Below are positions 12,670 through 15,689 of a DNA stretch of 38,482 bases, one piece after another. Both the position numbers and the translations under genes were made by a program. The notes under the pieces were generated by a model, which worked only from the letters and a program-made list of their open reading frames with translations, was not told where the DNA came from and did not search any database. Every line of letters starts with the position of its first letter. Position 1 is the first letter of the stretch. This DNA comes from Eubacteriales Family XIII. Incertae Sedis bacterium (GTDB lineage Bacteria > Bacillota > Clostridia > Peptostreptococcales > Anaerovoracaceae), in contig JAISMX010000111.1 of the NCBI GenBank assembly GCA_031276515.1, forward strand, positions 1 through 38,482, given 5' to 3'.

Positions 12670-13545
12670 TCAAGCGCGGGGGGCGAAGGCGCGGACGGCG
12701 TCCGCCACCGCCGCGAATTCGCGGAGATCCAGCGTCTCCGCGCGGCGCGCGGCGTCTATGCCGGCCGATTCCAGCGCGCGGCCGATTTCCTCCTTGCCGC
12801 ATCCGGCGAGGCCGGTCAGCGCGTTCAGCAGGGTTTTGCGGCGCTTGCCGAAGCCCGCGCGCACGACGGCGAAAAACATGGCCTCGCTCTGCGGCCGGAC
12901 GGCCTTTTCCCACCGGAAGTCGAAGCGCAGCACCGACGAATCCACCTGCGGCTTGGGGATGAAAACCTCCCGCGACACCCGGGCGATGAAACGCGTCTCG
13001 CAGCGATAGCGCACCGCCACGGTCAGAGCGCCGTAGGCCTTTTCGCCGGCGCGCGCGCTTATGCGCTCCGCGACCTCCCTTTGCATCATGAAAGTCATGC
13101 CGTCGGCCTGCGGGCCTTCCTCCAAAAACCGCAGGATGACGGGGGTCGTGATGCAGTAGGGCAGGTTGCCGATGATCTTGAGGCCGCCTCGCTCCGTCTC
13201 GTCTCGGCGCAGCAATTCGCAAAGATCGATTTTCAGTATATCGCCTTGTACGACGCGTATATTGTCATAATTTCCCAGAACATCCGCGAGCAGGGGTATG
13301 AGGCGAGCGTCCAGCTCGACCGCGACCACGCGGCGGGCTTTTTCGGCCAGTGCCGCCGTCAGCACGCCCATGCCGGGGCCGACCTCGAGCACACAGTCGT
13401 CCTCTCCTATGCCGGCGCCCTCGACGATGCGGTCGACGACGTTCTTGTCGACCAGGAAATTCTGACCAAAGCGTTTGACGGCGCGAATCCCGTATCGCTC
13501 GCCGAGCTCGCGAACGGCGGATGGCGCGTACAGCTTCCGCATCAT
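12670..13545 (-). CDS. rsmA: 16S rRNA (adenine1518/1519-N6)-dimethyltransferase
   Basis: FGQNFLVDKNVVDRIVEGAGIGEDDCVLEVGPGMGVLTAALAEKARRVVAVELD; IIGNLPYCITTPVILRFLE. Confidence 0.97.
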   Translation of the reverse strand: MMRKLYAPSAVRELGERYGIRAVKRFGQNFLVDKNVVDRIVEGAGIGEDDCVLEVGPGMGVLTAALAEKARRVVAVELDARLIPLLADVLGNYDNIRVVQGDILKIDLCELLRRDETERGGLKIIGNLPYCITTPVILRFLEEGPQADGMTFMMQREVAERISARAGEKAYGALTVAVRYRCETRFIARVSREVFIPKPQVDSSVLRFDFRWEKAVRPQSEAMFFAVVRAGFGKRRKTLLNALTGLAGCGKEEIGRALESAGIDAARRAETLDLREFAAVADAVRAFAPRA

Positions 13546-13961
13546 TCGGCGTCCGCCTTTTCGTCCGAGGGCGCGCCGTCCGCCGCATCCTCGGCGTCGC
13601 GCTCCGGCAGCACGTAATATATTTCGCCGGGCTTCACCATGCGGAGCCGCGTGCGCGCCTGCTGCTCTATGTACACCGGGTCGTTTATGTACTCGAGCTC
13701 GCTTTCGAGACGCGCTTTCTTATCGAGAGCGGCATCGAGTTCGGCCATGGCCCGCGCTTCGTCCGCTTTCAGCGCGACGATGCGGACGGCGTAGACGCTC
13801 GACATGACCAGCAGGAACAGCAGGATCGCGATGTAGAATTTGCGGTAGGCGAACATGCGGTTTCCGCGCCTTCGGGATTTTTGAAGCGCGCGCTTCTCCT
13901 TGCGGTTTTCCCGCGCCTCCGCCATGCTTATGATGCGTTCGTTCCTTGTTCGTCTGTTCAT
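13542..13961 (-). CDS. FtsB/DivIC (septum formation initiator)-like protein
   Basis: Small bitopic protein: basic N-terminus, one TM (FYIAILLFLLVMSSVYAV), coiled coil (LDAALDKKARLESELEYINDPVYIEQQARTRLRMVKPGEIYYVLPE). ATGA-type overlap with rsmA. Confidence 0.82.
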   Translation of the reverse strand: MNRRTRNERIISMAEARENRKEKRALQKSRRRGNRMFAYRKFYIAILLFLLVMSSVYAVRIVALKADEARAMAELDAALDKKARLESELEYINDPVYIEQQARTRLRMVKPGEIYYVLPERDAEDAADGAPSDEKADAE

Positions 13962-14132: not shown

Positions 14133-14162
14133 TTGACGCGTCGCGGCGGCGCGCGTTATAAT
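14133..14162 (+). promoter_or_regulatory. Putative sigma70-type promoter for metK
   Basis: TTGACG (14133-14138) - 18 bp - TATAAT (14157-14162), about 30 bp upstream of the riboswitch. Confidence 0.75.
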
Positions 14163-14190
14163 AATGTTGTCAACATAACAACCGAATATC

Positions 14191-14418
14191 CCCTTATCGA
14201 GAGCGGCAGAGGGAATAGGCCCTGTGAAGCCCGGCAACCTGTGACGCCGATCCTCAATCAAAGCATTCCATATGACGAGGATTGGCGAATATCGTTTTTT
14301 ATTGTCCGTTCCAAAATTCGGAACGGGAGTCAAATCGAAAACGGTATGACGTCCGACGCGTACGCGCGCGGATCGCAAAGGTGCCAAATCCTACAGACCG
14401 GAGGTCTGAAAGATGAGG
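14191..14418 (+). ncRNA. SAM-I (S-box) riboswitch aptamer with greatly expanded P3
   Basis: Core: CTTATCgAGAGcGGcaGAGGGAataGGCCCtgTGAagCCCGGCAACC ... GGTGCCAAATCCtaCAGaccggaggtCTGaAAGATGAG. P1 = CTTATC/GATGAG (one G-U). P3 strands 14233-14239 and 14380-14385. Lies directly upstream of metK. Confidence 0.95.
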
Positions 14419-14461
14419 AAGCATACACCGGCCTCTTCATCGTCAGCGATGGAGAGTTTTT
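14412..14461 (+). terminator. SAM-I expression platform: intrinsic terminator with competing anti-terminator
   Basis: CTCTTCATCG-TCAG-CGATGGAGAG (14433-14456, 10 bp with one G-U) then TTTTT. GATGAGGA (14412-14419, 3' P1 strand) can instead pair with TCTTCATC (14435-14442). Confidence 0.85.
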
Positions 14462-14498
14462 CTTGTGCGAGGGGAGAACAAGGAGAGGAAGGAGCAAT

Positions 14499-15689
14499 AT
14501 GAGCAAGAGGTTATTCACATCCGAATCCGTTACCGAGGGACATCCCGACAAGATCTGCGACCGGATTTCCGACGCGATATTGGACGCCATTCTCGAAGCG
14601 GACCCGAACGGCAGGGTGGCCGCCGAGAGCACCGTCACGACGGGCCTCGCGCTGGTCGTCGGCGAGATTTCGACGAGCACCTACGTGGACATTCCCAAGC
14701 TGATACGCGAGGTGATCAACGAGATCGGCTACACCAAAAGCGAGTACGGCTACGACGGCAACACCTGCGCGGTGCTGACCGCGATCCACGAGCAGTCCGG
14801 CGACATCGCGCTCGGCGTGGACAAAGCGCTGGAGTATAAGGAAGGGACCTTAAACGACCAAATCGAAGCCACGGGCGCGGGCGATCAGGGCATCATGTTC
14901 GGCTTCGCCTGCGACGAAACGCCGGAGTTGATGCCGCTGCCCATCTCGCTGGCGCACAAGCTAACGCTGCGCCTTGCCGAGGTGCGGAAGTCCGGGCTGC
15001 TGCCCTGGGTTCGCCCCGACGGCAAATCGCAGGTCACCGTGGAGTACGACGGCGACAAGCCGGTTCGCGTGGACACCGTGCTGATCTCCACGCAGCACGA
15101 CCCCGACGTCTCGCAGGAAGAAATACGGAAGGAGATCATCGAAAAGGTGATCCAAAACGTGATCCCGGCCGGGCTTCTCGACGCGCAGACCAAATACTTC
15201 GTGAATCCGACGGGCCGCTTCGTGATCGGCGGGCCGAACGGCGACTCCGGGCTGACCGGGCGCAAGATCATCGTCGATACCTACGGCGGCTACGCGCGGC
15301 ACGGCGGCGGCGCTTTCTCCGGCAAGGACCCGACGAAGGTGGACCGTTCCGCGGCCTACGCCGCGCGCTACGCCGCCAAGAACATCGTCGCGGCGGGGCT
15401 TGCGAAAAAGATTGAAATCGAACTGGCCTACGCCATCGGCGTGGCGCGTCCCGTATCCGTACTCGTGGACAGCTTCGGGACGGGCGCGATCGCCGACGAC
15501 AAGCTCGCGGCCCTCATCGAGAAGCATTTCGACCTGCGGCCGGCCGCCATCATCCGCGACCTCGACCTGCGCAGGCCGCTCTACAAGCAGGTGTCGGCCT
15601 ACGGCCACTTCGGCCGCCCGGATCTCGATCTGCCGTGGGAGAAGACGGACAAGGCGGAGCTTTTGAAAAAGGACGCGGCGACGATATAG
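14499..15689 (+). CDS. metK: S-adenosylmethionine synthetase
   Basis: [32 protein letters not shown]...; [35 protein letters not shown]. The ORF-track start at 14133 runs through the riboswitch and is not the real start. Confidence 0.98.

Follow-up and report, generated by a model that had tools for sequence, protein, structure and literature searches.

How does a SAM-I riboswitch accommodate 140 nt between two core motifs that flank its P3 element, and does the additional RNA serve the switch, or is it simply tolerated? The question arises from the metK leader in the window, i.e., the whole stretch of 38,482 nt analyzed here.

The aptamer, its expression platform and metK

Positions 14191-14419 (+) were found to match the Rfam model of the SAM-I (S-box) riboswitch (RF00162) with a score of 73 bits (E 2.1e-15; gathering score 44.4), and the model was covered completely (1-108). 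This was the sole match above cut-off when the whole window was scanned, and a single SAM-I element was found in the assembly that contains it (1.93 Mb, 77% complete). The first-pass annotation had described a SAM-I element with all core motifs and a distance of 140 nt from GGCAACC to GGTGCC, i.e., an enlarged P3. Both statements hold. The Rfam alignment contains AGAG, GAGGGA..GGCCC, GAAGCC, GGCAACC, GGTGCCAA, TCC and GAAAGAT, and places a 129-nt local insertion in the P3 loop of a core that otherwise looks standard. In an alignment of the six leaders of the genus the same motifs are invariant or nearly so. The leader and the gene that it regulates consist of:

14133..14162 (+): sigma-70-like promoter TTGACG-18-TATAAT, 11/12 matches in a consensus scan (a sequence match, which is not proof of use)
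14192..14198 (+): P1 5' strand, pairing with 14412-14418 (mean pair probability 0.996 in the fold)
14233..14243 (+): P3 5' strand, core GGCA/A/CC and basal UGUG, pairing with 14374-14385 (Rfam alignment and fold); invariant in the aligned genus leaders except that G004 has GGU in place of the UGUG stretch
14374..14385 (+): P3 3' strand CGCAAAGGUGCC (Rfam alignment and fold)
14394..14408 (+): P4 hairpin CAGACC/GGUCUG (fold), with a stem that is invariant in the genus
14412..14441 (+): putative antiterminator, P1 3' strand GAUGAGG with CUCUUCAUC of the terminator 5' arm (complementarity read from the sequence)
14433..14456 (+): intrinsic terminator, a 10-bp stem followed by TTTTTCTT (terminator scan; pair probability 0.99 in the fold)
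14499..15689 (+): metK, encoding SAM synthetase, the regulated gene

The order promoter, aptamer, terminator and metK is the standard one: the promoter lies 5' and the terminator 3' of the aptamer, with metK downstream. The assignment of metK is based on Pfam matches to PF00438, PF02772 and PF02773 (S-AdoMet_synt N, M, and C) on 14499-15686. SAM-I riboswitches act by transcription termination; here, a high SAM level would be expected to terminate transcription and thereby lower metK expression. The antiterminator was not predicted in the fold at equilibrium. A polyamine-related gene downstream, as in the spermidine-sensing SAM-I variant (PMC10853860), is absent and metK is found in its place. 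The locus is a canonical and genuine SAM-I riboswitch, which judged from its sequence should bind SAM. It shares with RF00162 SAM-I elements the whole consensus core, P1-P4, the terminator platform and metK downstream; it differs in a P3 that is ~105 nt longer than in the genus and is predicted to form a four-way junction and not one hairpin.

An open frame (14133-15689) runs from the promoter through the entire riboswitch, insert included, and in frame into metK. We take it to be due to chance and dismissed it as a TTG-started gene because the start codon falls on the promoter. Divergent from metK, 12670-13961 holds an ordinary pair of genes, one DivIC/FtsB-like and one for an rRNA adenine dimethylase (RsmA/KsgA).

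Place, fold and possible role of the P3 insertion

The leader was compared with five leader copies from four other genomes of the genus. The distance from GCAACC to the GGTGC region, measured in the same way for all, is 27-39 nt in the five congener leaders and 139 nt here, and among these genomes the ~105-nt insertion is therefore confined to that of the window. In the alignment the extra nucleotides are located between UGUGA and GUCCG, i.e., at a 2-nt bulge that joins basal and distal P3 in the genus, so that both parts of the ancestral P3 are left in place. Among the six leaders the core and the P4 stem are invariant, the terminator hairpin is kept with minor differences and metK is retained. 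Only at the P3 tip do they differ to a large extent. metK 3' of the leader is 90-95% identical in the four congener leaders with enough sequence, while in the fifth its start is truncated but matching. Thus, the insertion has disrupted neither the core that contacts SAM nor P4 or the terminator. One genome of the genus (G002) carries two SAM-I/metK leaders with differing P3 tips, on contigs C178 and C213 (L033 and L034); it may be a mixed bin, since it is 6% contaminated. The enlarged P3 contains:

14245..14349 (+): species-specific P3 insertion of ~105 nt, not found in the five congener leaders; GC content 43% vs. 62% for the window
14245..14287 (+): hairpin A, an inverted repeat of 11 bp with one G-U and a 21-nt loop (pair probability 0.99, z -4.5)
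14289..14347 (+): hairpin B, inverted repeats 14289-14299/14337-14347 around 14305-14312/14320-14327 (pair probabilities 0.89 and 0.97, z -4.5)
14351..14373 (+): ancestral distal P3 hairpin of the genus (GUCCG/CGGAU; fold), the same hairpin being found in most congeners

Compared to the DNA around it, the insert shows significantly more structure. Relative to dinucleotide shuffles, z was -5.7 for 14245-14347 and -4.67 for 14240-14379, while none of 420 control segments of equal length from the same contig reached -5. This is in agreement with the structured insert proposed by the first-pass annotation. Its 11-bp helix (14245-14255/14277-14287) was located exactly; its second hairpin, CCGTTCC/GGAACGG at 14306-14326, was correctly positioned, but the outer helix 14289-14299/14337-14347 that encloses it had been missed. 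In the fold of the full leader, P1, P3, P4 and the terminator were all predicted with high probability. Hairpins A and B were predicted closed, with basal and distal P3 both intact next to them; P3 is therefore predicted to form a four-way junction with the two hairpins side by side. Deletion of the insert in silico left the core fold the same.

A pairing of CGATCC with GGATCG had also been proposed, extending P3 and competing with hairpin A as a switch. The complementarity exists, although the CGATCC arm had been placed one base off; it is 14248-14253 that matches 14370-14375. As a competitor the pairing fails, and we regard such a switch as next to impossible. The penalty for forcing it is 11.7 kcal/mol for the aptamer and 12.9 kcal/mol for P3 alone, its pair probability is 1e-8 to 1e-9, and 14370-14373 are already used by the distal P3 that is conserved in the genus. 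Moreover, hairpin A would have been fully transcribed ~80 nt earlier, so that the pairing would come late.

P3 is peripheral and directed away from the SAM pocket, and its tip was already known to vary. We envisage that ~105 bp were inserted into its bulge and that the RNA would fold immediately, as two hairpins that are each self-contained, leaving basal and distal P3 free to form. With the SAM pocket, P4, P1 and the terminator unchanged, the switch should then work as in the relatives. The locus is most likely a canonical SAM-I riboswitch, with metK expression lowered at high SAM, and its P3 insertion is most likely tolerated and functionally neutral. A neutral, tolerated insertion accounts for all evidence. 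Long stem-loop-forming insertions that are not conserved are known to be tolerated by riboswitches (Barrick and Breaker, 2007; PMC2258182), and long P3 extensions of unrelated sequence recur above the Rfam cut-off in other lineages. Against neutrality stands that the structure of the insert exceeds that of its surroundings, something not required of a purely random insertion, and that a single insert sequence exists.

Of the two options left by the first-pass annotation, simple tolerance is the one supported. The other, a second sensing or protein-binding module, gained no positive support, the insert being found in one species only and lacking both a homologue that could show covariation and an Rfam relative. 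More generally, a functional second module that tunes the switch (a protein-binding site, second sensor, processing site or pause element) would fit the unusually stable fold and the retention of the insert in the leader of metK, a normally essential gene. We consider it improbable, since the insert was found in one genome only, is without Rfam family and relatives, and leaves core and platform the same when removed. A lax-threshold Rfam scan of 14236-14385 gave nothing nested in the insert beyond a chance-level match (E 3.2). Slightly less probable again is that the two hairpins represent a recently acquired regulatory domain grafted on P3, e.g., a protein-binding or pause module; metK would in that case have a second input besides SAM.

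Origin of the insertion

The insertion is flanked by an imperfect 7-bp direct repeat:

14240..14246 (+): left copy, TGTGACG (sequence)
14345..14351 (+): right copy, TATGACG, 105 bp away (sequence)

The copies are identical at 6/7 positions, with 5 bp perfect, and a repeat this good at a spacing of 105 is found at 0.23% of window positions. Together with the low GC content, the repeat gives a hint of transposition or slippage. It is conceivable, though on balance doubtful, that a small mobile or palindromic element of the MITE or REP kind transposed into P3 and left the insert as its relic. The repeat at the insertion boundary, a candidate target-site duplication, the GC content of 43% compared to 62% and the two strong hairpins would all agree with such an origin. 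However, no long terminal inverted repeat was found, and no second copy was present in the assembly, which is 77% complete at 1.93 Mb, or in the four congeners. The 351 genomes of the family gave only chance-like matches of 17-35 nt, and no match was found in phages or viral contigs. A mobile relic concerns the origin of the insert and is compatible with its being neutral and tolerated.

It is very unlikely that the insertion is an assembly error. The draft genome is fragmentary (169 contigs, 77% complete) and one strain was examined, but the genus-type leader is contiguous on both sides of the insert and joined to metK. The insert has no match elsewhere in the assembly and is placed precisely in the P3 bulge.

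Long P3 extensions in other lineages

A SAM-I core with 5-35 nt at the P3 position was found in 255 of 399 genomes sampled from the phylum, while an equally strict pattern found 91-151 nt in only two of the 399, the genome of the window and one other. The P3 is thus beyond the normal size, as had been proposed. Among 84,980 species genomes the strict long-P3 pattern matched 44 stretches. One of these, L081, was not counted as a real extension, as a run of N and another core lie within it. The others were mostly from Clostridium and Chloroflexi; most are long hairpins with imperfect pairing, and several have branches. A weak form of the pattern was not used within the family, since it mostly matched coding DNA and a reversed control also matched often.

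Twelve long-P3 loci, ten from the strict pattern or a similar one plus L148 and L155, were checked against Rfam, and nine of them were found to hold a long SAM-I element above cut-off. The longest confirmed span was 233 nt, compared to 229 nt for the window element. L093, L099, and L102 gave no SAM match above the Rfam cut-off and are unconfirmed as long-P3 loci. L155 (G464) and L095, both from Bacillota, have an identical 99-nt P3 extension and are apparently from the same species.

The SAM-I leader of G074 (L148), from another genus of the same family, likewise has an extended P3 (~80 nt, span 170), but this is one long imperfect stem, unbranched and of unrelated sequence. Long-P3 elements of Clostridium (L112 from C. 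jeddahtimonense, L075 and L096 from C. saudiense) have P3 extensions of 91-146 nt and Rfam-confirmed spans of 195-233 nt, and for some a branched P3 with two inner hairpins is predicted, like that of the window. They differ in being AT-rich imperfect hairpins of one recurring sequence family, with several SAM-I copies per genome, and their sequence is unrelated to the window insert.

In several Clostridium genomes, many separate SAM-I elements (L074, L075, L076, L079, L082, L086, L096, L100, L101, L104, L108, L110, L112, L113, and L116) have P3 extensions of ~100-146 nt and mutually similar, GTTAATAGTTAGTAG-like sequence. A few pair changes affecting both sides were seen, and several related stretches occur per genome. 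Duplication of leaders could explain them, as could a repeat with a preference for the P3 site. These repeated extensions are more interesting than the window insert.

As points against a special role, the first-pass annotation had named absence of the insert from close relatives with no covariation, and many equally large extensions already known. The insert is absent from the five congener leaders, which bears out part of the former, and about 40 comparable loci exist elsewhere, which bears out the latter in part. Compared to the variable insertions described for riboswitches (PMC2258182), the present one is larger than usual for SAM-I, and a dedicated study of long-P3 SAM-I elements was not found in the open literature searched. 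The insertion is a clear size outlier for its lineage, yet of a known kind; large P3 extensions are uncommon, not new. It raises no new mechanistic question. It is a natural example which suggests that the SAM-I P3 tip accepts ~100 nt of additional structured RNA with the rest of the leader unchanged. This supports the engineering of riboswitches with grafts placed on P3, and models used to search for SAM-I riboswitches must allow for large P3 inserts.
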